Origin: a virus
Direction: 5' to 3' (one strand)
Virus record (IMG/VR): IMGVR_UViG_3300028676_000003
Location: 248,001 to 312,000 of that record
DNA: 64,000 bases
Below the pieces are notes generated by a model. That model was not told where the DNA came from. It saw nothing but the letters and a program-made list of their open reading frames with translations, and did not search any database. Every line of letters begins with the position of its first letter. Position 1 is the stretch's first letter. Shown here in pieces: positions 737 through 63,394 of this stretch. The position numbers and the translations under genes were made by a program.

Positions 737-1861
737 ATGTTAGCAATACAAGAATATATCAAAAAACACGGAATAAATAAGGCAATTTCAGACTTTAATC
801 TAAAATCTAGAGAGTATGAAAACAAAATCTTATTGAAATACGACCAATTATCATCACCAACAATGATGGCAATGGCTGAAATGCAAGATTCTCGTGGTAT
901 TATCCTTGAAAAAGGAACTTGGAAGGTCTTATCACTTGCATTTAGAAAGTTCTTCAACTCAGAAGAAGGAAATGCACATAAAATTGATTGGAATACTGCC
1001 CGTGTACTAGAGAAACTAGATGGTACCCTTATACAATTGTATTGGGATGCACATAAAGGTAAGTGGTTTGCAGGTACTACAGGTACAGCAGAAGGTGAGG
1101 GTGAAGTGAATAATAAAAATGGTACTACATTTAATGACCTTTTTTTCCAAACAGTTGCTGAAAAATACAACTTGGATTTAAACAGACTTGATAAAAAATA
1201 CTGTTTTGTGTTCGAATTAACAACACCTTATAATATAGTAGTGAAGCCACACGGTGAATCATCTGCTACGTTATTAACTATTAGAAACCTTGAGACACTT
1301 GAAGAAGTTTGTTATGAAGAATTACTAAACCACGGTTCAGTATTAGGACTTCCAGTAGTTAAATCATTTGACCTTAATGCTAAGAACGTTGGAGCTTTGC
1401 TTCGTACATTCGAAAACATGCCATGGTCAGAAGAAGGTTATGTTGTTGTTGATGGAAACAATGATAGAATCAAGTGTAAAAACCCAGCTTATGTTGCGGT
1501 TCACCACTTAAAAGGTAAGTCAGCAGAACACAATATCATCACGATTGTTAAATCAAACGAGATTGAAGAATTTGGTTCTACTTTCCCTGAAAGAAAAGAA
1601 GAATTGTACAAGCTTAAGGCTAACTACGATATCCTTTTAGAAAAATTACTTGTAACTTGGGAAGAATTGAAATTACGTAAACCTAAGAATATCATGCCAG
1701 CCGAAAAGAAAAAATATGCGGCCGCTGTATTCGAAGTTTGCGAGAAACATGACTTAAAGCCATTTACAGGTTTATTCTTTGGACTAAACGATGGAAAGGT
1801 AGAAAGTGTTGAAAGCTTCCTTATGAACTACGACGATAAACTCTTATACAAGATGTTATGA
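737..1861 (+). CDS. T4 Rnl1-like RNA ligase
   Basis: 374 aa, the size of T4 RnlA. RNA ligases of this family join 5'-phosphate and 3'-OH ends and repair tRNAs cut in the anticodon loop. Motif I is KLDGT with the adenylated lysine at about residue 93, preceded by the RG..L and KFFN elements typical of Rnl1. Motif IV is EEGYVV and motif V is IKCKNPAYVAVHH. A C-terminal domain follows, which in T4 contacts tRNA. It has its own promoter. HD-Pnk further along the window would supply the matching ends. Confidence 0.88.
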   Translation: MLAIQEYIKKHGINKAISDFNLKSREYENKILLKYDQLSSPTMMAMAEMQDSRGIILEKGTWKVLSLAFRKFFNSEEGNAHKIDWNTARVLEKLDGTLIQLYWDAHKGKWFAGTTGTAEGEGEVNNKNGTTFNDLFFQTVAEKYNLDLNRLDKKYCFVFELTTPYNIVVKPHGESSATLLTIRNLETLEEVCYEELLNHGSVLGLPVVKSFDLNAKNVGALLRTFENMPWSEEGYVVVDGNNDRIKCKNPAYVAVHHLKGKSAEHNIITIVKSNEIEEFGSTFPERKEELYKLKANYDILLEKLLVTWEELKLRKPKNIMPAEKKKYAAAVFEVCEKHDLKPFTGLFFGLNDGKVESVESFLMNYDDKLLYKML

Positions 1862-5825: not shown

Positions 5826-6872
5826 ATGAAGAAAATGATTAAATTTCCGTCTATCGAGCAGTTTCGTACAATTAACGCAACTATCCTTAGACAATTCAAT
5901 TTCGTCGGTTTAGACGAAACGGGAGAAGCTATCTACGATACAAACCTCCCAAAACCAAAGCTTTGGTTCAAAGGTAGTGTAAAATTACATGGTACAAATG
6001 CCGCTGTTTGTTACAATACCGCAGGTGGTTTATGGGCACAATCACGTGAAAGCATAATCACAGTTGAAAATGATAATGCAGGGTTCGCATTCTTTGTGGA
6101 AAGTAACAAAGACGCATTCAACCAATTATTCCGTAAAATTCAAGACGAAACAAGTGTTAGTTTTGAACATAATACGGTAAGTATCTATGGTGAGTGGTGC
6201 GGTGGAAACATCCAAAAAGGTGTTGCGATTACAAACTTGCCTAAGTCATTTTTCATCTTTGGTGTGAAAATCTCACCAATTCGTACAAAAGAGCAAGAAG
6301 AAGATAACAAAGAAGTATCATTTTGGGTAGAGTCAAACTATTTAGAGGTTCCTGAAAATAGAATCTACAATGTTGACAGTTTCCAAACATATGCTATTGA
6401 AATCGACTTCAATAACCCTCAATTAGTACAAGACAAATTAACTGAATTAACACTTGCTGTAGAAGCAGAGTGTCCGATTGGAAAAGCTTTCGGATTCTCA
6501 GGTGTTGGTGAAGGTATTGTTTGGAAAACGGAATTGGATGGAGAGGTCCATAGATTCAAAGTTAAGGGTGATAAACACTCTAGTTCTAAGAGCGAGAAGA
6601 TTGTTAGTATTGACGTTGAAAAATTGGAATCAATCCAAAAATTCATCGAATATGCTGTAACAGAAAGTCGCTTCAAACAAGGTCTTGAAAATGTATTCCC
6701 AAATGAAGAACCTATCGAAATCAAAAAGATGGGTGAACTTATCAAATGGGTAGTTAATGACGTTATCAAAGAAGAGACCGACACAATGGTAGCTAACAAT
6801 ATCGAACCAAAAGAGGTTAATAAATACATCTCTACAAGGGTACGTGAAATGTTCATGGCACTAAGTGTTTAA
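5826..6872 (+). CDS. T4 Rnl2-like RNA ligase
   Basis: 348 aa. Motif I is VKLHGTN with the reactive lysine at about residue 53; the HGTN form is diagnostic of the Rnl2/REL1 group. Motif III appears as SIYGEWCGG, motif IV as GEGIVWK and motif V as HRFKVKG, followed by a helical C-terminal domain as in Rnl2. Rnl2-type enzymes seal nicks in double-stranded RNA. This is the second of three RNA ligase genes in the window. Confidence 0.88.
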   Translation: MKKMIKFPSIEQFRTINATILRQFNFVGLDETGEAIYDTNLPKPKLWFKGSVKLHGTNAAVCYNTAGGLWAQSRESIITVENDNAGFAFFVESNKDAFNQLFRKIQDETSVSFEHNTVSIYGEWCGGNIQKGVAITNLPKSFFIFGVKISPIRTKEQEEDNKEVSFWVESNYLEVPENRIYNVDSFQTYAIEIDFNNPQLVQDKLTELTLAVEAECPIGKAFGFSGVGEGIVWKTELDGEVHRFKVKGDKHSSSKSEKIVSIDVEKLESIQKFIEYAVTESRFKQGLENVFPNEEPIEIKKMGELIKWVVNDVIKEETDTMVANNIEPKEVNKYISTRVREMFMALSV

Positions 6873-8997: not shown

Positions 8998-10284
8998 ATG
9001 ATAACAAACGAGAATGGTTTAAGATATGCTAAATTGATGCACGTTTCAGTTGATAACGGTCATACAGATAATAGCAATAAAGTTTATATCATGGAAGAAC
9101 TTTCCAATGGTACAATCAAATGTGAATACGGTAGAGTCGGTAATTCGATGGCCGTAGATATCAAACCCGCAAGCAAATGGGATGCAACCTATAAGCAGAA
9201 AACAAGCAAAACGAAGGGTTACACTGATGTAACTGAGTTTATGGCTGAACCTGTTGTAGATGCCGCTAAACCTTCAGGTAACAACCTGATTGATGATATT
9301 CCTGATGCTCTTGTTAAAGAACTTATTAAACGTTTAAGCGACTTCGCAAACAAATCGATTCAACAAAACTATAAGGTAACTCAAGATGCAGTATCTGAGG
9401 CCCAAGTAGTTGCGGCTCAAGCTTTATTAACTAGAATTACAACAACAGTTGCAGTTGGAGTTAGTAAAAATGACTTGAATGAAATGCTTATGCAATTATA
9501 TACGATAATCCCTCGTAACATGAGAAATGTTAAGGATTATTTGTTAGATGAAATCAAAACTGCCGATGATGTAAATCAAGCATTAGAGTTCTTGAATAAA
9601 GAACAAGCTACTCTTGATACAATGGCTGGTCAAGTTGATTTAATAAAGAAACAGAAGCCTGTAGTTGATACTGAAACCAAAGAAGTGAAACCATCAACAT
9701 ATACTATTCTTGACCAAATGGGTATTACAGCTGAGGTTGTAAATGATGCTCCAACTATCAAGATGGTAAGAGATATGCTTGAAGGACATGGTAGAAAACT
9801 TCACAGAGTCTACGCAATTACCAATAAGAAATCACAACCGCTTTACGATACCAAATTGGATTCAAGCAAAAACAAATTGGTTGAACACTTGTTCCACGGT
9901 TCAAGAAATGCCAATTGGTTTAACATTCTTCAAACTGGTCTTATGATTAGACCTTCGGGAGCTGGTTATAATGGTTCTATGTTTGATGATGGTATCTACT
10001 TCGCTAACGATGCAGATAAATCAATGGGTTACACCGATGGTGGTCGTTGGGCAGGTGGTGGAAACGCAAGTTACACTTACTTAGGTGTATTTAGCGTTCA
10101 CTTAGGAAACCAATTACACGTTCATAGACATGATTCTTCATGTTACAAAATTGGAACCAAGTGTAGAAACGAGGGTTATGATTCGGTTTATGCTCACAAA
10201 GGAGCTTCACTTAGAAAAGATGAGTTAATTATTTATAATTCTGCTCAGTGTACTGTTAAATATTTAGTAGAACTTAAAAATTAA
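8998..10284 (+). CDS. WGR-PARP: poly/mono(ADP-ribose) polymerase-like protein
   Basis: 428 aa with three parts. Residues 1-80 form a WGR domain (KLMHVSVDNGHTDNSNKVY then CEYGRVG), which in PARPs senses DNA ends. Residues 95-225 are helical and match the PARP regulatory domain. Residues 290-428 are the catalytic domain: LFHGSRNANWFNIL with the NAD-binding His near 300, GSMFDDGIYFAN with the conserved Tyr, and RKDELIIYN with the catalytic Glu. It would transfer ADP-ribose from NAD to protein or nucleic acid. Full-architecture PARPs are unusual in phages. NADAR and ADP-ribosylglycohydrolase genes in the window are possible erasers. Confidence 0.9.
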   Translation: MITNENGLRYAKLMHVSVDNGHTDNSNKVYIMEELSNGTIKCEYGRVGNSMAVDIKPASKWDATYKQKTSKTKGYTDVTEFMAEPVVDAAKPSGNNLIDDIPDALVKELIKRLSDFANKSIQQNYKVTQDAVSEAQVVAAQALLTRITTTVAVGVSKNDLNEMLMQLYTIIPRNMRNVKDYLLDEIKTADDVNQALEFLNKEQATLDTMAGQVDLIKKQKPVVDTETKEVKPSTYTILDQMGITAEVVNDAPTIKMVRDMLEGHGRKLHRVYAITNKKSQPLYDTKLDSSKNKLVEHLFHGSRNANWFNILQTGLMIRPSGAGYNGSMFDDGIYFANDADKSMGYTDGGRWAGGGNASYTYLGVFSVHLGNQLHVHRHDSSCYKIGTKCRNEGYDSVYAHKGASLRKDELIIYNSAQCTVKYLVELKN

Positions 10285-17135: not shown

Positions 17136-17484
17136 ACAAACATACGATAATAAAGCAATTAGAGATTATATCAGAGATAATAGACATTATACTGATGAAA
17201 TGGTAGCAGATAAATTTGGAGTTTCTACTGGAGTTGTAAGTGCAAATAAAGCTCATATTACTATGGGTACAGATACCGATAATCCACAAAAAAGAGCAGA
17301 ACCTAAATTTGCAAAAACCTATCTTAAACAGTTAATTCTTATAAAAACTAGTGCTTATCATTTAATTATTGATGAGAATGGTGGTTATATGAGACTAGAT
17401 TTAAAGAATCGTAAACTTTCAAAATTAACTGATGAACAAGCTAAAGCTATTATGCTAAATAGACTACATGAAACATATAATTAA
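17128..17484 (+). CDS. Helix-turn-helix protein
   Basis: 118 aa. Residues 12-38 (RDNRHYTDEMVADKFGVST...) form a helix-turn-helix of the Trp-repressor/transposase style, followed by a beta-rich part and a helical tail. Probably a DNA-binding regulator; target unknown. Confidence 0.6.
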   Translation: MSKQTYDNKAIRDYIRDNRHYTDEMVADKFGVSTGVVSANKAHITMGTDTDNPQKRAEPKFAKTYLKQLILIKTSAYHLIIDENGGYMRLDLKNRKLSKLTDEQAKAIMLNRLHETYN

Positions 17485-18412
17485 AGACATATTGTTTGGA
17501 CTTGCTGTTGGAGACGCTTTAGGTGTTCCAGTTGAGTTTCTATCAAGAGAAGAAATTGCAAGTAATCCAGTAACTGACATGCGTGAGTTCGGAACACACC
17601 ACCAACCCAAGGGAACTTGGTCTGATGATGCTTCACTAGCGTTTTGCTTGGCTGAATCACTTACCAAGGGTTATGATATCCAAGACATTGCGAATAACTT
17701 CGTTAAATGGAAGTATGCAAACCTATGGACTGCAAGAGATGTTGTATTTGATATCGGAATTGCTACAAGTGCCGCAATTGACAGAGTTTATCGAAAAACA
17801 AATCCTATTGAATGCGGTGGTGCTGATATTTCATCAAATGGTAATGGTTCTTTAATGAGAATCCTACCACTTTTGCCTGAATTAAAAAATCTAAGTATTG
17901 AAGATTCATTCAAAAAGGTAAGTGATGTTTCGTCTATTACACATAGACACCCAATTTCACTTATTTCATGTTTTTATTACATGGAATATGCTAATTTTTT
18001 AGCAACAGGAAATGATAGATTTGAATCATATCATTTGTTACGAAGACACTTCAGAACAATGGCCGAAGGAATGGGATTTGATGAAGAAACGATAAATAAA
18101 TTGAGCCGTTTGACTGATGAAAATATATTTGACATTCCAATGGACAAGATTCATAGTAGTGGATATGTGATTCATAGTCTTGAAGCAAGCATTTATAATA
18201 TTTTAACAACAAATTCTTATTCAGAAGCTGTTTTACAAGCCGTGAATATGGGTCAAGATACAGATACAACGGCCGCTATTACTGGTGGACTTGCTGGAAT
18301 GATATATGGATTTGATTCAATCCCAAAAGAATGGATAAATGAATTGGCTAGAAAAGAGGATATCTTGGACTTGGCCGATAGATACGAAAAAAAATTAAAA
18401 GAAAATGAGTAA
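17468..18412 (+). CDS. ADP-ribosylglycohydrolase (DraG/ARH family)
   Basis: 314 aa, full family length. LFGLAVGDALGVPVEF at the N-terminus holds the GDALG metal-ligand loop; GTWSDDASLAF supplies the SDD/T ligand set; NGSLMRILPL and MGQDTDTTAAITGGLAGMIYG near the C-terminus give the second metal-binding D-TD. These enzymes remove ADP-ribose from arginine, serine or other acceptors using two magnesium ions. It could reverse the WGR-PARP or host ADP-ribosylation. Overlaps the HTH gene by 17 bases. Confidence 0.9.
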   Translation: MKHIIKDILFGLAVGDALGVPVEFLSREEIASNPVTDMREFGTHHQPKGTWSDDASLAFCLAESLTKGYDIQDIANNFVKWKYANLWTARDVVFDIGIATSAAIDRVYRKTNPIECGGADISSNGNGSLMRILPLLPELKNLSIEDSFKKVSDVSSITHRHPISLISCFYYMEYANFLATGNDRFESYHLLRRHFRTMAEGMGFDEETINKLSRLTDENIFDIPMDKIHSSGYVIHSLEASIYNILTTNSYSEAVLQAVNMGQDTDTTAAITGGLAGMIYGFDSIPKEWINELARKEDILDLADRYEKKLKENE

Positions 18413-23424: not shown

Positions 23425-23429
23425 CTAAA

Positions 23430-23506
23430 AGATAGTTTCAGCAAGCAAACGGTTAAAAATTTGTCTCATAAACAAACTGAGTGGTTCAATCCCACAAAAC
23501 TATCTT
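23430..23506 (+). tRNA. tRNA-Met-like (CAT), abnormal D-arm
   Basis: Acceptor AGATAGT/ACTATCT perfect; anticodon arm TTTGT-CTCATAA-ACAAA (CAT); T-arm GTGG/CCAC. The D region (TTTCAGCAAGCAAACGG) does not form a normal D-stem and carries a TTCAGCA motif found elsewhere in odd tRNA genes. Confidence 0.6.
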
Positions 23507-23512
23507 GAATTT

Positions 23513-23595
23513 GGCCGAGTGGTGGAATTGGTAGACACGCTAGTTTAAGAAGCTAGTGCTGTAATGGCATGCGGGTTCGAGTCCCGCCTTGGTCA
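23513..23595 (+). tRNA. tRNA-Leu (AAG)
   Basis: Acceptor GGCCGAG/CTTGGTC; anticodon arm CTAGT-TTAAGAA-GCTAG giving AAG, with a long Leu-type variable arm. An A34 Leu tRNA is rare in bacteria. Confidence 0.8.
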
Positions 23596-30911: not shown

Positions 30912-31059
30912 GGGAATGTACGTTCAGCGGTCCGATTGGCTCTTAGGAGATGGTTTAAAACAATTGGGAAGTGTGTCAAGAAATTGATTGGGTAAAAACA
31001 CTATCAGAACGACTCCCGTGAAGGGGAGAAAGTCGCAGGTTCGAATCCTGTCGTTCCTA
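30912..31059 (+). tRNA. tRNA-like gene with 81-base D-loop insertion (Phe-like GAA, 6-nt loop)
   Basis: GGGAATG (30912-30918) pairs CGTTCCT at the 3' end; TA at 8-9; D-stem CGTTC (30921-30925) with GAACG (31007-31011); A26; anticodon stem CTCCC/GGGAG with 6-nt loop GTGAAG; T-arm GCAGG/CCTGT. Between the D-stem strands are 81 bases with two further helices (CCGATTG/CAATTGG and AGTGT/ACACT). Every element of a cloverleaf is present around the insertion. Confidence 0.55.
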
Positions 31060-31129
31060 CTATGAAGTACCTACGGCAATAGGTATAACAGAGCCAACGA
31101 ATTTGAATTGCCGTTTGAAGGTGTTGGTA

Positions 31130-31200
31130 GAAGCGTTCGTCTAGTGGACCAGGACACAGCCAATGGGGCTGAAACACAGGTTCGAGTCCTGTACGCTTTG
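31130..31200 (+). tRNA. tRNA, anticodon unclear (5-nt loop AATGG)
   Basis: Acceptor GAAGCGT/ACGCTTT, D-stem GTCT/GGAC, T-arm ACAGG/CCTGT, discriminator G. Anticodon stem CAGCC/GGCTG closes only AATGG, so the anticodon is TGG (Pro) with two bases missing, or ATG with a shifted stem. Confidence 0.6.
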
Positions 31201-31290
31201 CAATTAAGAGCACGTGGAAGTACGATAGCCCCCACAGTATAGAAAAAAACTAAGGTATCGTTGACTTCATGGTGGAAAGAAACCATATTT

Positions 31291-31363: not shown

Positions 31364-31417
31364 AAGAGACTGTTACTAATTTATAGGACTCCGAGTGAGG
31401 GGAAGCGTAGAATTAGA
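31364..31417 (+). ncRNA. Spacer RNA element, family 1, copy 1
   Basis: GAGACTGTTACTAATTTATAG ... GCGTAGAATTAG (first part 31366 on). CTAATTT pairs GAATTAG. Two more copies at 52481 and 52821 keep the pairing with changed bases. Confidence 0.65.
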
Positions 31418-31423
31418 ATTTTT

Positions 31424-31731: not shown

Positions 31732-31862
31732 GGAAATGTTACCCCAAAGCATGAGATTAATCAGAATGCGAGTCTATCAATGATAACGAAACCTTGATAG
31801 ATTTAGGAATAAGGGTACCTCTAATGGGATTTCGTTTGCAGGTTCGAGTCCTGCCATTTCCG
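31732..31862 (+). tRNA. tRNA-like gene with large D-loop insertion, anticodon unresolved
   Basis: Acceptor GGAAATG (31732-31738) pairs CATTTCC (31855-31861), 7 of 7, discriminator G; T-arm GCAGG/CCTGC. ACCC (31741) pairs GGGT (31813) as a D-stem around a 68-base insert holding GCAT/ATGC and a perfect 8-bp TCTATCAA/TTGATAGA hairpin. The anticodon arm region (31818-31837) does not form a clear stem. Confidence 0.5.
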
Positions 31863-31889
31863 CAATAATGTAACAAAAAAAATTGAGTT

Positions 31890-36847: not shown

Positions 36848-36919
36848 GGAGATGTAGCTCAGTTGGTAGAGCGGCCCCTCAAACGGGGTGTGTCGCAGGT
36901 TCGAACCCTGCCGTCTCCA
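36848..36919 (+). tRNA. tRNA-Leu (CAA)
   Basis: Acceptor GGAGATG/CGTCTCC, anticodon region CTCAAAC (CAA), but the better stem GCCCC/GGGGT leaves a 6-nt loop. Class I variable loop, unusual for Leu. Confidence 0.68.
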
Positions 36920-36985
36920 CTTCTTCGATGAAAGGTGGTGCCTTCCTTTAAATCTCGGCATAGATTTTTGTTAGTTCAGCCTAGG

Positions 36986-37893: not shown

Positions 37894-38529
37894 ATGGCAG
37901 TAACAAAACCAACAGCGAAAAAAGGAAGCGTAGCTACAGAGCAAATCGTAGGGCAAGCGGCTCAACAAATCACTAAAGCAGTAGCAGAATTAGCAGGAGC
38001 TACAAAAACTATCGAAACACTTGTTTCTCAATCTGAGGAATTAACACTTTTGGTAGCTAACAAAGAAGAACAAATTAAAGATTTAGATGTTCAATTCGCA
38101 GAAAAAGAGCGTCAATTAAACGTTAACTTGGATTTAAGTTTCAAAGCTAACGCTGAGAAAATGGTAAGCGAAAATTTATCTGCAAATGGTAAAGTAGCTA
38201 TCTCTTCTACAGAATTGAAAGAATTACGTTCTGAGTTAGAAACTGTAAAATCAGGTACAGAAGCATTAGTGAAAAAAGAGACTGCAATCATTGCGTCTAC
38301 GTTGAAATCTCAACACGAGAATGAAATCAAATTGATTCACTCTGAAAACAAAGCTATTGCCGCTGAAAACGCTGCTAAGTTAGGTTCGTTAACAAAACAA
38401 AACGAGTTCTTAGAAGAGCAAGTAACTAAATTGTACTTACAATTAGACGCTGAAAGAGCGGCTGGTACAGAAAGAGCAAAAGCTGGTTCAATCGGGAACA
38501 TCACTGTTGGAGAAACAGGTCGTAAGTAA
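37894..38529 (+). CDS. Coiled-coil protein (211 aa), probably highly expressed
   Basis: Alanine-, lysine- and glutamate-rich, almost all helical, with heptads over residues 45-190 and a glycine-rich tail (GSIGNITVGETGRK). No transmembrane part. It has one of the strongest promoters in the window and tRNA genes follow directly. Could be a scaffold or DNA/RNA-organising protein; no family recognised. Confidence 0.72.
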   Translation: MAVTKPTAKKGSVATEQIVGQAAQQITKAVAELAGATKTIETLVSQSEELTLLVANKEEQIKDLDVQFAEKERQLNVNLDLSFKANAEKMVSENLSANGKVAISSTELKELRSELETVKSGTEALVKKETAIIASTLKSQHENEIKLIHSENKAIAAENAAKLGSLTKQNEFLEEQVTKLYLQLDAERAAGTERAKAGSIGNITVGETGRK

Positions 38530-38598
38530 TCGTTGACAAAAAGAAAGGTCGTCTAAATCGTAATTGGTTTAGACACCACAAGGTATAAAAAAATTCGT

Positions 38599-38719
38599 TC
38601 AGCATAAAAAGCAATTCCAAACTTCGGGTCGTAGGTTCGAGTCCTACCCTCTCCACTAGGGTTATAATCGGAGAGGTAGCTCGGTCGGATTAGAGCAGAA
38701 GTCAGCAAAAAAAGCAATT
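38599..38719 (+). tRNA. Circularly permuted tRNA-Gly (TCC) flanked by 18-base direct repeats
   Basis: The 3' half comes first: TTCCAA, ACTTC (38621), variable GGGTC, T-arm GTAGG-TTCGAGT-CCTAC, CCTCTCC (38648-38654), A. After 14 bases comes the 5' half: GGAGAGG (38670-38676), TA, D-arm GCTC/GAGC, A, GAAGT (38698-38702). Acceptor 7/7, D-stem 4/4, anticodon stem GAAGT/ACTTC 5/5 and T-stem 5/5 pair only across the halves. The rebuilt loop is (C)TTCCAA, normal for Gly TCC. An 18-base repeat (38599-38616 and 38702-38719, one mismatch, TCAGCA...GCAATT) brackets the unit in the anticodon loop. Confidence 0.75.
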
Positions 38720-38731
38720 TTGATACCCCAT

Positions 38732-38850
38732 ATAGTAGTCGTCTAGTGGACAAAGACACCGCCCCTGTATTCGTGTATGAGGTTCGACTCCTCTTTAGCA
38801 GTGGTGGTATGACGTAGGTGGAAACATTGGTTCAAATCCAATCTGCTGTA
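38732..38850 (+). tRNA. tRNA with 46-base insertion in the anticodon loop
   Basis: Acceptor ATAGTAG/CTGCTGT (7, two wobbles), D-stem GTCT/AGAC, A26, anticodon stem CCGCC (38759-38763) with GGTGG (38817-38821), variable AAAC, T-arm ATTGG/CCAAT. The 53-base loop holds a second T-arm-like hairpin GAGG-TTCGACT-CCTC. Anticodon uncertain. Confidence 0.6.
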
Positions 38851-38886
38851 CAAAAGGTTCCTCTTGCCTTACAAGAGAATAAAAAA

Positions 38887-39000
38887 GATTATTTCAGCAA
38901 TCAAACAAAAAAAATCTATTTGAAAGAGAGCGGAGGGGTTCGACTCCCCATTTGTCTATAAGAGGTATGACAATTTGTTGTAACGGTAGCACTAATAAAA
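38887..39000 (+). other. Second candidate permuted or decayed tRNA
   Basis: A 3'-like half (GGGG-TTCGACT-CCCC then ATTTGTC, to 38956) is followed after 12 bases by a 5'-like half starting GACAATT (38969) with a D-arm TGTT/AGCA. GACAA pairs TTGTC. Halves of the anticodon stem match weakly. It carries a TTTCAGCAA motif at its left end. TCT (Arg) is the likeliest anticodon if real. Confidence 0.4.
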
Positions 39001-39023
39001 AAAATTAATCTTGATTCTCACAT

Positions 39024-39094: not shown

Positions 39095-39240
39095 CAAATA
39101 CTGACCTCCACTTCAGTAATTATTTCGTTTTTTAGAGGTGGCTCCCTTTCCACAATTGTGGATATAACCAAAAATTGCTGTGGCAGACCACGGGCATCTG
39201 ATAGGTCAACTATCTATACAGGGGGCGAAACTAAATGTTT
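39095..39240 (+). other. Intergenic region with hairpins
   Basis: No gene seen. CCTCCA/TGGAGG-like pairing around 39106-39140 and a TCCAC/GTGGA hairpin near 39150. A longer frame from 39065 is not convincing. Confidence 0.4.
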
Positions 39241-49385: not shown

Positions 49386-50250
49386 TATTAATAAGATGTT
49401 GGTTCGCCCATGCTTTTTAACATAAGGCCGCTTATGGTCTTCAGGATAAACATAGTGATATGTAGAAAGCGATTTAGCGGAAGCAAGATTGCGTTGGGAA
49501 TTTATTACCAATCCGAGTAAGCGATGATAAACGCAGTGTTTATGTAAAGGCAACAAGAGACAAAATCTGTTGGAGTTGGAAGTAAACATTATAGCCCAAA
49601 TTTTGATTCATGGGTTATTGAGTACGAAAGTATAATAGAGGTTTATCAGGATTTGGTGAATAACTGTAAAAGGGGAATAAGCTGGGTCCAGTATTTAGAT
49701 TATGGTGTAGCTGAAAGGTGATATTAATCGAAGGTACCATGTTCGAGAGAGCATATCGGGGTGTCGTTAGCTGGGCTACTCAAAAGGTAGTACGTTAGCA
49801 AATCTGAGGACACATCCTGAACTGAAATGAATCGATGCAATTTATTTAGGTTTTTAACCTGAAATATCTTTTAAGAAAAGGAAATTTTATAAAAAGCAAA
49901 AGTTCCTCAGAACATGATTTGAAAAATGAGTTATACTGTTGTAAAATACAGTTGTTGCTAGGCCGCAAGCCAAAGTGACAAAATAAAGTAAGTAGTTCTA
50001 AGCTAATAGCCCGCAAGCTATGCAGACTCGCAAGGTCAGTCGGATGAAAATGGAGTTTATATAGAATCATGTAGTGATTGCAGAATCGTATATCTGTCTC
50101 ATTGTTGACTATTCCTGTAGCAATATAGGTGTGTGTAACAAACCGAAAGGTTTCAAAACGTCAACAGTATAGCTGAACACTCAGGCGACTACAAAATTTT
50201 GGGGATAACCTTTAATCGGTTCATAAGGCGTAAAACCTTATATCCCCACA
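49386..50250 (+). ncRNA. Large ornate non-coding RNA (about 865 nt)
   Basis: No credible ORF on either strand but dense hairpins: CATAAG-GCCG-CTTATG (49421), ACATA-GTGA-TATGT (49450), GTAC-GAAA-GTAT, ATAAAC/GTTTAT, three consecutive short hairpins with CGCAA loops near 49960-50035, AAACC-GAAA-GGTTT inside a TGTTGAC/GTCAACA helix, and a three-way junction GGGGATA/TATCCCC (about 50199-50248) holding AACC/GGTT and ATAAGG/CCTTAT. It has a strong promoter and ends at a tRNA. This is the profile of giant phage RNAs such as GOLLD or ROOL; I cannot tell whether it belongs to a known one. Confidence 0.65.
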
Positions 50251-50254
50251 CATT

Positions 50255-50339: not shown

Positions 50340-50520
50340 GACATATTAATTAAATTCGGGAGCAATACATATAGTATTGAATAGGTGGAAACCCTTATGC
50401 TCCCACTAGGCTTCGTAATTAGGAAATATGGATGCGGTTAAAAGAAACGACCAAAGATAAGGTTTCACGGCAAAAGGCTCTATTCGTTAACCAGCGAGCT
50501 TTTACTTATCTTTGGAAATT
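50340..50520 (+). ncRNA. Two structured spacer elements
   Basis: First: GGGAGCA/TGCTCCC (acceptor-like 7 bp) enclosing AATAC/GTATT and ATAGG/CCTTAT hairpins. Second: an 11-bp helix CCAAAGATAAG/CTTATCTTTGG near 50450-50517 with an AAAAG-CTC/GAG-CTTTT inner stem. No ORF. Confidence 0.52.
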
Positions 50521-50910: not shown

Positions 50911-50921
50911 CAAACACAAAA

Positions 50922-51010
50922 CGGGTTAACCTCTGCGAACAGAAAGTACGAGGATGGAACAATTGGAAAGATATCGCTAGTTGCAAAGGGTTCGATTCCC
51001 TATAACCTGA
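50922..51010 (+). tRNA. tRNA-like gene with expanded D and anticodon loops
   Basis: Acceptor CGGGTTA/TAACCTG 7 bp, discriminator A; D-stem CCTC/GAGG with a CTG-CGAA-CAG hairpin in its loop; CAATT/AGTTG stem around a 14-base loop with GATATC. Possible Ile (GAT). Confidence 0.45.
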
Positions 51011-52480: not shown

Positions 52481-52540
52481 AAGAGACTGTTATTAATTCA
52501 TAGAACACCATACTTAGTAAGTACTGGAAGCGTAGAATTA
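52481..52540 (+). ncRNA. Spacer RNA element, family 1, copy 2
   Basis: AAGAGACTGTTATTAATTC ... GCGTAGAATTAA; TTAATTC pairs GAATTAA, a compensated version of the CTAATTC/GAATTAG stem in copy 3. Confidence 0.68.
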
Positions 52541-52820: not shown

Positions 52821-52875
52821 AGATAAGACTGTTGCTAATTCATAGGGTACCAAGGTAAAAACTGCGTAGAATTAG
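52821..52875 (+). ncRNA. Spacer RNA element, family 1, copy 3
   Basis: AGACTGTTGCTAATTCATAG ... GCGTAGAATTAG with perfect CTAATTC/GAATTAG stem. Confidence 0.68.
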
Positions 52876-52881
52876 AAAATT

Positions 52882-53197: not shown

Positions 53198-53256
53198 AAA
53201 ATGATTTCAGCAAATATTATCATCAAACTTTTAATTTGAAACAGATATATCATTTT
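53198..53256 (+). ncRNA. Spacer RNA closed by an 8-bp helix, with TTTCAGCAA motif
   Basis: AAAATGAT (53198) pairs ATCATTTT (53249). Inside, TTTCAGCAA, TCAAAC and TTTGAAA occur in the same order as near 38890. Confidence 0.48.
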
Positions 53257-53265
53257 GTTCTTTTT

Positions 53266-57926: not shown

Positions 57927-58310
57927 ATGGTAGCAATATTAATAACATACAATAAATGGCTTACAGAGTCTAAGTTATTTGTAGTAAAAGAAGTGAAGAT
58001 GTTCGCAGGAATTGGACTTAAAGAGGCCAAGGATTTTGTGGACGAAATTGATAATAACATCCGTTTGGGTAAAACTATTTCTATTGGAAAAGGGAGTGAA
58101 ACACACGAAATACTAAAATTCTTAAAAGAGAAAGACTTACTTTCATTTGTGGAAGCTCATAAGACTGGGCTAAAGAAAGAAAATCATCGTGTGGTTGCTA
58201 AGCGTAGCAAGGAATATGATATAGCTAGGTCTTGGTTCGATTCTTTGCACCCAAAGAAACAAGCTATGATTCAAACGCTAATAAACGAAGAAAATGGCAT
58301 TTCAGGATAA
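57927..58310 (+). CDS. Tandem paralogue 3, L7/L12-like motif
   Basis: 127 aa. VVKEVKMFAGIGLKEAKDFVDEI is the best match of the three to the L7/L12 C-terminal domain, which in ribosomes binds translation factors. Then KDLLSFVEAH and ARSWFDSLHPKKQAMIQTLIN. Overlaps the RNA ligase gene by 17 bases. Confidence 0.72.
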   Translation: MVAILITYNKWLTESKLFVVKEVKMFAGIGLKEAKDFVDEIDNNIRLGKTISIGKGSETHEILKFLKEKDLLSFVEAHKTGLKKENHRVVAKRSKEYDIARSWFDSLHPKKQAMIQTLINEENGISG

Positions 58311-58992
58311 ATACGGAAGAACCCTACATTTTGATTTTAGTCCTGGAACTACATCGGATGATAGAATAAATACAGAATGGAGAGAGCAGGTACAGAAGTT
58401 TCCTAAGCTGATTCATACTGAGAAACTAGACGGAGAAAACTCTTGTCTATCTCAATATGGTGTCTTTGCTAGGTCACATGCGGCACCTACACTACATCCA
58501 TGGGCTAACCACTTGAAAGAGAAGCAATCAGTAATTCAACATGACCTAAAAAGCATGGATTTTGAAATATTTGGTGAAAACCTATATGCTTTACACTCAA
58601 TCATTTACCCTGAACTTACAGCACATTTCTATGTGTTTGGAATTAGGGTCCTTGATAAGTGGCTTTCATGGGAAGAAACCAAGCAATGGGCTGGATTCTT
58701 TGATTTTCAAGTGGTTCCCGAATTGGGAATTCAAGATACAACTGAACCTGAACTAATAAAATCAAGGGTACTAGAATTAGGTAGTCAGCCAAGCGTATTT
58801 GGTTCACAACAAAATAATACTGACCCGCTTATTGATTGTACACGTGAAGGTATTGTAAGTAGGAATATAGACGAATACACAGTTGAAGGTTTCAAAGAGA
58901 ATATCTTCAAATATGTGAGAAAAGACCACGTTCAAACGGACGTTCATTGGAGTAAAACAATAACAAGAGCAAGACTAATACACGAATACTAA
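58294..58992 (+). CDS. RNA ligase, third copy (Rnl2-superfamily, short type)
   Basis: 232 aa. HTEKLDGENS is motif I with the lysine near 44; FEIFGENLYA motif III; REGIVSRN motif IV; FKYVRKDHVQTDVHW motif V. Only the nucleotidyltransferase domain plus a short tail is present, as in compact phage and bacterial RNA ligases. Substrate not known. HD-Pnk and LigT-like genes lie within 5 kb. Confidence 0.85.
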   Translation: MAFQDKYGRTLHFDFSPGTTSDDRINTEWREQVQKFPKLIHTEKLDGENSCLSQYGVFARSHAAPTLHPWANHLKEKQSVIQHDLKSMDFEIFGENLYALHSIIYPELTAHFYVFGIRVLDKWLSWEETKQWAGFFDFQVVPELGIQDTTEPELIKSRVLELGSQPSVFGSQQNNTDPLIDCTREGIVSRNIDEYTVEGFKENIFKYVRKDHVQTDVHWSKTITRARLIHEY

Positions 58993-60978: not shown

Positions 60979-62091
60979 ATGTGGAAGTTTAAGTATTACG
61001 ATATAGAGAAGGGTCCTGATTGGACAGCAATTGAAAGGAATTGCGAGTGGTTTCGTGATATGAAAGACGTTCCACAAGACAAGATATGGCATGCCGAAGG
61101 TGATGTTCAAATCCATACAAAAATGGTTTGTGAAGCACTTATCCAATTGTCTGAATTTCAAGAACTTAGTGAAGAAAAGAAACACATTATGTTTACAGGT
61201 GCGCTTATGCACGACATAGAGAAACGTTCTACAACTACAACTGAGTTCAAGAATGACAGAGAGTGTATTATTGCTCCTAAGCATGCTGAAAGAGGTGAGA
61301 AAACAGCAAGAGAAATTCTTTATATGGATTTTGATTGTCCTTATCATTCTAGAGAACAAATCTGTAAGATTGTTAAGTGGCACGGGAAGCCTCTACACGA
61401 TGCATCTAATAAGACACTTGCTAGACTAGCAACACAAGTTCAATTACCATTTCTAGCAATGATTGCAAAGGCCGATATTCTTGGCCGTATTTGTACTGAT
61501 GCTGAAGAACACTTGGAAAGAATTGAATTTTTCCAAATGCAAGCAGAAGACATTGGTTGTTGGGGTCGTACAATGTACTTTCAAAATCAATTGATTGAAT
61601 ATGAAGCTTTAAAAACGGGTAATTTATATTCACATCGTTTTGATGATACGAAGTTTGAGGTAATGATGATGTCCGCAATCCCAGGTTCAGGCAAAGACCA
61701 CTACGTTAAGAATAACCTTCAAGGGTGGCCTGTAATCAGTCTTGACGATATTAGAGCTGAGCTTAAGGTTAAGCCTTTAGATAAAAAGGGTAACGGACAA
61801 GTGATTCAACTAGCTAAAAAGAGAGCTAAGGAACTAATGGCTAAGCATACAAATTTTGTATGGAATGCCACAAATATAACTCAACAAATGAGAGGTCAGT
61901 TGATTGAGTTATTTGAAGAATATGGTGGAAAGGTAACAATTGTTTATATTGAGGTCCCTTATAAGACTCTTATCAAGCAAAATAACGATAGAGAAGCGAT
62001 AGTTCCTCAAAGTGTTATTGAAAAGATGATTAGAAAATGGGAACCACCTATTCGTGAAGAAGCATATAGAATATTAACTTTTACAAATTAA
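60979..62091 (+). CDS. HD-Pnk: RNA end-healing enzyme (HD phosphoesterase + polynucleotide kinase)
   Basis: 370 aa in two domains. Residues 35-210 are an HD domain (HTKMVCEALIQL, GALMHDIEK with HD at 78-79, IVKWHGKPLHD, AKADILGR) like that of tRNA nucleotidyltransferase. Residues 228-370 are a P-loop kinase: AIPGSGKDHYV with Lys239, VISLDDIR, a lid with REAIVPQSVIEKM. The order matches HD-Pnk described in the Bacteroidetes bacterium Runella, which removes 2',3'-cyclic or 3'-phosphate and adds 5'-phosphate. It would make ends that the three RNA ligases can seal. Confidence 0.88.
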   Translation: MWKFKYYDIEKGPDWTAIERNCEWFRDMKDVPQDKIWHAEGDVQIHTKMVCEALIQLSEFQELSEEKKHIMFTGALMHDIEKRSTTTTEFKNDRECIIAPKHAERGEKTAREILYMDFDCPYHSREQICKIVKWHGKPLHDASNKTLARLATQVQLPFLAMIAKADILGRICTDAEEHLERIEFFQMQAEDIGCWGRTMYFQNQLIEYEALKTGNLYSHRFDDTKFEVMMMSAIPGSGKDHYVKNNLQGWPVISLDDIRAELKVKPLDKKGNGQVIQLAKKRAKELMAKHTNFVWNATNITQQMRGQLIELFEEYGGKVTIVYIEVPYKTLIKQNNDREAIVPQSVIEKMIRKWEPPIREEAYRILTFTN

Positions 62092-62821: not shown

Positions 62822-63394
62822 ATGAATATTAAACAAAGACTTAGAGAGGTTTTATTAGAAGCCGAAAAAAAGGACCACAAACGAGAGTATGGTTGCCTTA
62901 TGGTTTTCTTAGATGTTGACAAGAAAGCTTGGAAAGAATTACAAGATATGATTGACAAGGACGACTTGTATACAGAAAAAGACGATGATGGTTATGGTCT
63001 AGAAGATAAACCACACGTTACAGTACTTTACGGACTTCATGGAGAGATTGAAGATAAGGAATTAGAGGTTGAAATCAATAAGATTACAGAACCTAAGATT
63101 TCTTTTAAGAATATTTCAACATTTGAGGCCGATAAGTATGATGTATTGAAATTTGATGTATCGAGTAGCGACTTGGTTAAACTTAACAAGAAATTCAAGG
63201 AATTTCCACATACTAGTACGTTCCCTAATTATCATCCTCATTGTACAATTGCTTATCTGAAAAAGGGTGTTGCTGAAAAGTACATCAAAAAGGCTAAGGA
63301 TTTGGTTAAGATGGATATGGAACCTGAAAAGGTTGTTTATTCTAAGGTTGATGGAACTGAGAAGAATTATAAAATAAATAAAAAAGAGGCTTAA
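62822..63394 (+). CDS. LigT-like 2H phosphoesterase
   Basis: 190 aa. Two HxT motifs: PHVTVLYG (about 60) and PHCTIAYL (about 140), spaced as in LigT/ThpR enzymes that open 2',3'-cyclic phosphates in RNA. Strands around both fit the duplicated fold. Near HD-Pnk and the RNA ligase at 58294, so a role in RNA end repair is likely but not proven. Confidence 0.8.
   Translation: MNIKQRLREVLLEAEKKDHKREYGCLMVFLDVDKKAWKELQDMIDKDDLYTEKDDDGYGLEDKPHVTVLYGLHGEIEDKELEVEINKITEPKISFKNISTFEADKYDVLKFDVSSSDLVKLNKKFKEFPHTSTFPNYHPHCTIAYLKKGVAEKYIKKAKDLVKMDMEPEKVVYSKVDGTEKNYKINKKEA

Follow-up and report, generated by a model that had tools for sequence, protein, structure and literature searches.

What kind of RNA can a phage obtain from a tRNA gene whose 3' half stands before its 5' half? 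This question is raised by a locus at 38615-38703 of a 64,000-nucleotide stretch of viral DNA (hereafter the window), which corresponds to positions 248001-312000 of the 368,549-bp IMG/VR virus record IMGVR_UViG_3300028676_000003. As an earlier note had described, the locus (the target; Table 1) forms a tRNA-Gly(TCC) cloverleaf with 21/21 pairs only when its halves are taken in reverse order. The break at 32/33 is the single best answer of a junction search, and joining of the halves there gives the canonical anticodon loop CUUCCAA, again as proposed. ARAGORN makes no tRNA call on the locus in place; on the un-permuted sequence, it calls a 76-nt tRNA-Gly(TCC) whose stems are all perfect, whether or not a 14-nt insert is included. 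The cloverleaf was not recovered by folding alone, by which tRNA cloverleaves are often missed.

Table 1. Coordinates in the window of the target, of related genes and of candidate processing enzymes.
Feature	Position	Strand	Remarks
H1 5' strand (GGTAT...AAAATT)	38582-38595	+	pairs with 38716-38727; match of relatives-only covariance model starts at 38590
TTCAGCA motif (consensus TNCAGCA)	38598-38604	+	just 3' of H1; shared by every family member used; no variation in alignment A1
18-nt direct repeat, copy 1	38599-38616	+	overlaps TTCAGCA
3' half	38615-38655	+	U33, anticodon UCC, A37 A38, anticodon 3' strand, variable loop, T arm, acceptor 3' strand, A73
U33-UCC-AA	38615-38620		within 3' half
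Anticodon 3' strand ACTTC	38621-38625		within 3' half
T arm	38631-38647		within 3' half
Acceptor 3' strand CCTCTCC	38648-38654		within 3' half; A73 at 38655
Linker between acceptor strands	38656-38669	+	14 nt; CCA not encoded
5' half	38670-38703	+	acceptor 5' strand, D arm, anticodon 5' strand GAAGT, C32
Acceptor 5' strand GGAGAGG	38670-38676		within 5' half
D arm	38679-38696		within 5' half
Anticodon 5' strand GAAGT	38698-38702		within 5' half; C32 at 38703
18-nt direct repeat, copy 2	38702-38719	+	
H1 3' strand (AATTTTGATACC)	38716-38727	+	
Second permuted tRNA-shaped gene	38885-39014	+	H1 AAGATTA/TAATCTT, TTTCAGCAA, arm around TTTGAAA, T arm, degenerate acceptor, D arm
Reduced member, anticodon arm and T arm only	23429-23515	+	H1 AAGATAGT/ACTATCTT, TTTCAGCAA, arm TTTGT-CTCATAA-ACAAA
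Anticodon-arm-only member (Lys UUU)	53198-53260	+	H1 AAATGAT/ATCATTT, TTTCAGCAA, arm TCAAA-CTTTTAA-TTTGA
T4 Rnl1-type RNA ligase, candidate joining enzyme	737-1861	+	PF09511, 49.6 bits
RNA_ligase-family proteins, candidate joining enzymes	58294-58992; another 5826-6872	+ (first)	PF09414, 91.2 and 49.8 bits
Protein with HD domain and P-loop kinase, architecture of end-healing type	60979-62091	+	PF01966, PF13671

A structural scan of both strands of the whole record returned the target as the sole top-score match, and 30 resampled genomes (22 Mb) gave one match scoring at least 16, none scoring at least 18 and none equal to the target. Misassembly of the region, raised in the earlier note as a possible objection, is unlikely because the target region is identical in a second IMG/VR contig (274 kb) and the same arrangement is found in relatives. 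At the target, the 18-nt direct repeat exists with its one mismatch, as had been noticed, but it is special to this copy: the longest string common to both flanks is 5-7 nt in the five relatives checked. For want of conservation, the repeats were rejected as the key to processing; what is conserved instead is the closing stem (H1) together with TTCAGCA.

Relatives were traced via the protein encoded at 37894-38529, upstream of the target, in five non-identical related contigs. Four of these carry a permuted tRNA-shaped gene just downstream of the homologue, and two of the four also include an orthologue of the second permuted gene of the window; orthologues of this second gene occur in L021, L024, L030, L036 and L094. 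In the relatives, the conserved 5' flank reads AAGATTA TTTCAGCAA and the conserved 3' flank AAAAAGTTAATCTTG, AAGATTA pairing with TAATCTT to form the stem H1. The target stem differs from that of its relatives and yet still pairs (GGTAT..AAAATT / AATTTT.ATACC). A wider pattern search identified permuted genes in many other phages among the matches listed. The total is well over 50 permuted tRNA-shaped genes in diverse phages, all with H1 then TNCAGCA, so that the target is not an isolated case. Some candidates on the automatic locus list, those with long linkers or poor arms, are probably spurious. Plain tRNA-array chimeras, in which the un-permuting scan had linked ordinary tRNAs lying next to each other, were excluded by requiring the TNCAGCA element.

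A covariance model (R1) was built from ten relatives, the window being left out. It matches the target with 62.9 bits (E 1.5e-9) and the second permuted gene with 61.2 bits (E 3.4e-9), the next matches in the same genome reaching at most 30 bits. Dozens of loci outside this genome match the same model; among the phages concerned is the cyanophage isolate BUCT-ZZ01, with permuted genes near 122.1 and 111.3 kb and arm-only genes near 113.2 and 119.5 kb. Among the ten relatives, two-sided changes occur in 13/28 pairs, across the permutation, with a covariation score of 0.370 against a shuffle mean of 0.163 (reached by 0/500 shuffles), and all five covariation measures exceed all 500 shuffles. When strands were compared between 84 candidate genes, of which a few are probably spurious, acceptor strands paired at 6.7/7 within their own gene and at 3.1/7 with the strands of other genes, and H1 strands gave 6.5 contiguous pairs within genes against 4.6 across genes. 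A compensatory change of A-U to C-G in H1 (AAGATTA/TAATCTT to AAGCTTA/TAAGCTT) separates the near-identical genes L119 and L221.

A perfect 5-bp anticodon stem is found in 53/82 solved permuted genes, 43 of the 53 having U33. Break positions vary from 26/27 to 33/34, with 43/44 added by reading; most members break at 26/27 to 29/30, and the target and several others within the anticodon loop. These comparisons of sequences establish the H1/TNCAGCA genes as a phage RNA family, apparently undescribed so far. A search of the literature outside subscription papers and most preprints found no permuted tRNA in a phage, a prior description being possible, and one paper on cyanobacterial tRNAs merely cites permuted tRNAs. 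Sinorhizobium phage Phosso (PV764938.1) includes permuted tRNA-shaped genes (L276 2960-3115 and 3205-3350) with a different closing element, a stem plus CGATGRTRTARGGTTATC / GGTCYTAYCNNACACTTGC, which suggests that permuted phage RNAs include a second class. A conserved structured RNA (GGTGGCTCCCTTTCC...GGGCATCT...ATACAGGGGGCGAA) directly follows the tRNA cluster of the window, at 39120-39240; it recurs in several relatives and in the huge phage LR756500.1 (L001 10001-10107, 85%) and has no Rfam match at the gathering threshold.

The element that defines the family adjoins the anticodon arm and consists of the stem H1 flanked by TNCAGCA and, at the opposite side, by the A-rich strand AAAAAG. 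The same element is found in three gene layouts, namely the permuted genes, tRNAs in normal order that carry it as an insert, and short arm-only genes. Within normal-order phage tRNAs, it forms an intron-like insert of about 40-60 nt. Thus, the tRNA-Lys of Serratia phage BF, annotated as a pseudo-tRNA, contains a 49-nt insert that is this element and reads GGCGAGT...GAGCACG / TAGAAACCC AAGATTCAAG TA CTTGAATCTT ACAGCAACAATAACTCAT / ACA CTTTTAA TGTCG..., the insert hairpin being H1 with a closed loop, followed by NCAGCAA. Without these 49 nt, the BF tRNA-Lys aligns ungapped at 90% with the insert-free tRNA-Lys of phage PaBG (residues 6-67, both 62 nt). About nineteen further normal-order candidates were found; the expected discriminator is present in 10/13 scorable intron-bearing tRNAs of this layout, and NCCA is encoded in five. 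On sequence grounds, removal of the insert from normal-order tRNAs is well supported because tRNA identity is kept, an insert-free homologue exists and the anticodon stem is complete only after joining.

No group I or group II catalytic core was found by Rfam match, the element being too short for one, and no known nuclease or ribozyme was found for it. Permuted (split) group I or II introns are comparable in that inverting the intron makes the exon circular, whereas the phage flanking element is only some tens of nt long and gives no group I or II match in Rfam. Insertions of unknown type also occur in the tRNAs of Lak megaphages, described there as enigmatic introns and stated to be the first reported in phage tRNAs (Devoto et al. 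2019, PMC6784885). In contrast to the present family, the passages compared speak of no permuted genes and describe neither a closing element nor arm-only genes nor a mechanism (PMC6784885). Insertions of another type are present in the window, as at 38732-38851, where a tRNA carries in its anticodon region a roughly 50-nt insert that holds a T arm and differs from H1/TNCAGCA; similar T-arm-insert tRNAs follow the permuted genes in L021, L022 and L023.

The arm-only genes, 55-90 nt long (55-65 nt where a single arm is held), present H1 and TNCAGCA around an anticodon arm, some with a T arm in addition, or around a lone T arm or D arm. Two clear members occur in the genome of the target. Perfect anticodon arms were counted in 43/107 short closed elements, a list that includes some unrelated sequences, against 4.9 expected (maximum 10) by shuffling, and in 35/80 elements of a stricter list. 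Of these 35 arms, 25 have U36 and 31 have A37, the commonest anticodons being Lys UUU and Thr UGU. The arms strongly favour the combination of U36 and A37, typical of ANN-codon tRNAs (Lys, Thr, Arg, Ile, Ser) of the t6A37-bearing type, and this bias may point to the host factor involved. Two mini tRNA-like hairpins, with an acceptor-like stem around two small arms, then ACA or ACTA, stand at 50203-50251 and 50357-50408 (fold z -1.5 and -2.8) within 1.8 kb of non-coding DNA at 49.0-50.9 kb.

The permuted genes differ from ordinary tRNAs by their discriminator. Base 73 was compared with the expectation for the anticodon, ordinary tRNAs from the same contigs serving as reference; stem and loop score cut-offs were applied and seven doubtful loci were excluded. 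The discriminator fits the anticodon in 337/359 ordinary tRNAs and in 13/44 permuted genes, the latter being no better than a random one in four (Fisher 5e-22, a value that overstates certainty because genes on related contigs are not independent, although the mismatches are spread over many unrelated phages). The target has A73 and an acceptor, GGAGAGG, of non-Gly type; the three ordinary tRNA-Gly of the window all have T73 and an acceptor starting with GCG, and each of these two features is found in 17/18 ordinary tRNA-Gly(TCC) of these phages. One permuted family displays GAA, GTA, GGA, GCA, TAG or ACG as anticodon on an unchanged body. The permuted genes have kept the anticodon arm but not the charging signal. 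A random discriminator argues against a cognate tRNA and fits a tRNA-shaped RNA that displays an anticodon; the loss would be expected of a circle that keeps the acceptor ends covalently joined. NCCA is encoded directly after the acceptor in a few permuted genes, which would fit charging and counts against an uncharged circle. Judged from these sequences, joining of the halves is plausible and charging as a cognate tRNA is not, so that the normal tRNA product which the earlier note had predicted becomes doubtful.

Ordinary tRNA genes of the window have peculiarities of their own, such as a His ATG anticodon on a Glu-like body (31130-31201) and a Leu CAA tRNA devoid of the long variable arm (36848-36920). 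Three tRNA-like genes (30967-31061, 31733-31865 and 50916-51010), in which the D-arm region carries extra hairpins or a long insert, receive no ARAGORN call, and a repeated inter-tRNA element, AGACTGTTNYTAATTYATAGG...GCGTAGAATTAGAA, lies directly upstream of tRNA genes at 31366-31420, 52483-52540 and 52825-52880.

The explanation preferred here, with a probability of about 0.4, is that the permuted genes yield uncharged circular tRNA-shaped RNAs acting as decoys for anticodon-directed host factors. The element would interrupt or enclose tRNA pieces beside the anticodon arm. From a normal-order tRNA, it would be excised as a small intron with joining of the exons; the order being inverted in a permuted gene, the same excision and joining would give a closed circle. 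At the target, this circle would restore the otherwise interrupted loop CUUCCAA and keep the acceptor ends joined by the linker, which would prevent charging and release the discriminator base from conservation. Isolated anticodon, T and D arms would be made into circles likewise. Resistant to exonucleases, the circles would serve as decoys and divert host factors that bind tRNA anticodon arms or attack them. We infer the splicing, the circularity of the permuted products and the enzymes involved; the decoy function against anticodon-directed nucleases is speculative and is suggested by the structure and the loss of tRNA identity. The wider proposal, that large phages have turned a small intron of a new class inside out in order to make circular unchargeable tRNAs or arms with chosen anticodons as stable decoys against tRNA-attacking immunity, is advanced tentatively.

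Phage tRNAs countering anticodon nucleases have been described (eLife 2023 PMC10264068; Nat Commun 2024 PMC11555353). They share with the proposed circles the aim at host tRNA-cutting defences, whereas they are ordinary tRNAs, and the word decoy is used in neither paper.

The joining would be performed by phage RNA ligases and an end-healing kinase. End-healing and RNA-ligating types of enzymes are indeed encoded in the window, as had been stated before: one ligase of Rnl1 type, two proteins of RNA_ligase type, and a protein that combines HD and kinase domains in an order resembling that of the bacterial end-healing enzyme HD-Pnk. The Rnl1-type ligase, RNA_ligase and kinase were found in 3/3 complete isolates searched, ligase and kinase being close together in BUCT-ZZ01 and BF. 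The ligase match is absent from many of the partial records searched, fragments in which absence proves little. Large phages in general often encode RNA ligases and kinases; this counts against the preferred explanation, as do the partial records devoid of a ligase match and the failure to find a known nuclease or ribozyme for the element. RtcB, present in only 1/27 records, was rejected as the common joining enzyme. Other proteins encoded in the window include a 2H phosphoesterase-like protein at 62822-63394 with a match to the anti-CBASS Acb1 (29.5 bits against a cut-off of 27), a PARP-like ADP-ribosyltransferase (PF00644) at 8998-10284 and, in the same phage region as the latter, an ORF resembling by eye an ADP-ribosylglycohydrolase at 17468-18412.

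Joining may not be needed at all if the genes produce a linear structured RNA with its ends paired in H1, a tRNA mimic used unspliced as a scaffold or decoy. H1 is conserved and covarying, the discriminator is lost, arm-only genes are simple hairpins, and the anticodon arm is complete or nearly so within one half in most members, for which little or no joining would be required. The target and several others nevertheless break in the anticodon loop, which becomes canonical only once joined, and the element is also an insert in identity-keeping tRNAs with insert-free homologues, which implies its removal. An unspliced mimic is accordingly rated unlikely, if worth keeping in view.

The algal and archaeal permuted tRNA genes offer a precedent for joined halves. 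Those of algae (Cyanidioschyzon merolae and others) and some archaea have in common with the target a 3' half before the 5' half, a short linker and a canonical tRNA once joined. Their pathway includes a circular precursor, depends on EndA and gives a chargeable product. Following this scheme, joining in the anticodon loop, cutting of the linker by RNase P and a 3' nuclease and addition of CCA would produce a functional glycine-decoding tRNA. Like such genes, the target folds solely with its halves in reverse order, with a perfect cloverleaf and the loop CUUCCAA once joined; the acceptor of the phage genes covaries strongly, the normal-order counterparts with the same intron resemble real tRNAs, several permuted genes have NCCA after the acceptor, and healing and ligating enzymes are encoded. 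The identity elements of a chargeable tRNA seem, from the sequences, to be missing (13/44 canonical discriminators; A73 instead of T73 and GGAGAGG instead of GCG at the target), six anticodons sit on one unchanged body, and arm-only genes cannot be tRNAs. Moreover, unlike the algal and archaeal type, the phage family has varied breaks, arm-only relatives, no conserved discriminator and no EndA gene match: EndA (PF01974) gave nothing above cut-off in the phage records covered (that of the target and 24 others). Inspection revealed no bulge-helix-bulge, the flanks being the plain stem H1 then TNCAGCA. A glycine-decoding tRNA made in the algal manner is therefore improbable.

YrlA Y RNAs (RF02553) possess a tRNA-like domain in which T arm, acceptor stem and D arm follow each other in permuted order, the ends being closed by a stem, and their outer stems bind Ro60. 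This order, shared with the phage genes, qualifies the earlier statement that permuted tRNAs are known from algae and some archaea. The phage genes could then be divergent Ro60-binding Y RNAs, and they share GAGCACGTA and CGTGGTCG-like strings with YrlA-like bacterial loci. A pattern search of bacterial genomes gave 18 stretches, 8 of them with the permuted T-acceptor-D layout and several YrlA-like. YrlA Y RNAs are known from bacteria and phages (Chen et al. 2014, cited in PMC7790460). The RF02553 model scores 29.3 bits at the target and 48.9 bits in the best relative, both below its 69-bit cut-off, and its outer stems fall on non-pairs with few consensus letters in the alignment of that relative. 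TROVE/Ro60 (PF05731) is absent from the 28 phage records searched (that of the target and 27 others), and the family includes, in contrast to YrlA, anticodon arms with variable anticodons and normal-order intron forms. Membership in YrlA, suggested by topology, was rejected on score, outer stems and missing TROVE, and even a divergent Y RNA is very unlikely.

Least probable are functionless recombination leftovers of a decaying tRNA array. The arrays of large phages do contain odd and broken tRNAs, and the acceptor of the second permuted gene is degenerate, but independent phages show covariation in H1 and across the permutation junction, the same locus is occupied in related phages, and perfect arms in arm-only genes far exceed shuffles.

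If circular decoys are indeed what these genes encode, they would represent a new RNA class in phages: widespread genes of permuted tRNA shape, which are accompanied by a new small tRNA intron and have in many phages been reduced to single arms. The question of why large phages carry many odd tRNAs would become directly testable. Phages would have a counter-defence based on circular RNA, and a small natural element, possibly able to circularise RNA, would be added. Were the decoy role to fall away, it would still be surprising for phages of bacteria to have a tRNA intron that is neither of group I or II nor of the archaeal type.
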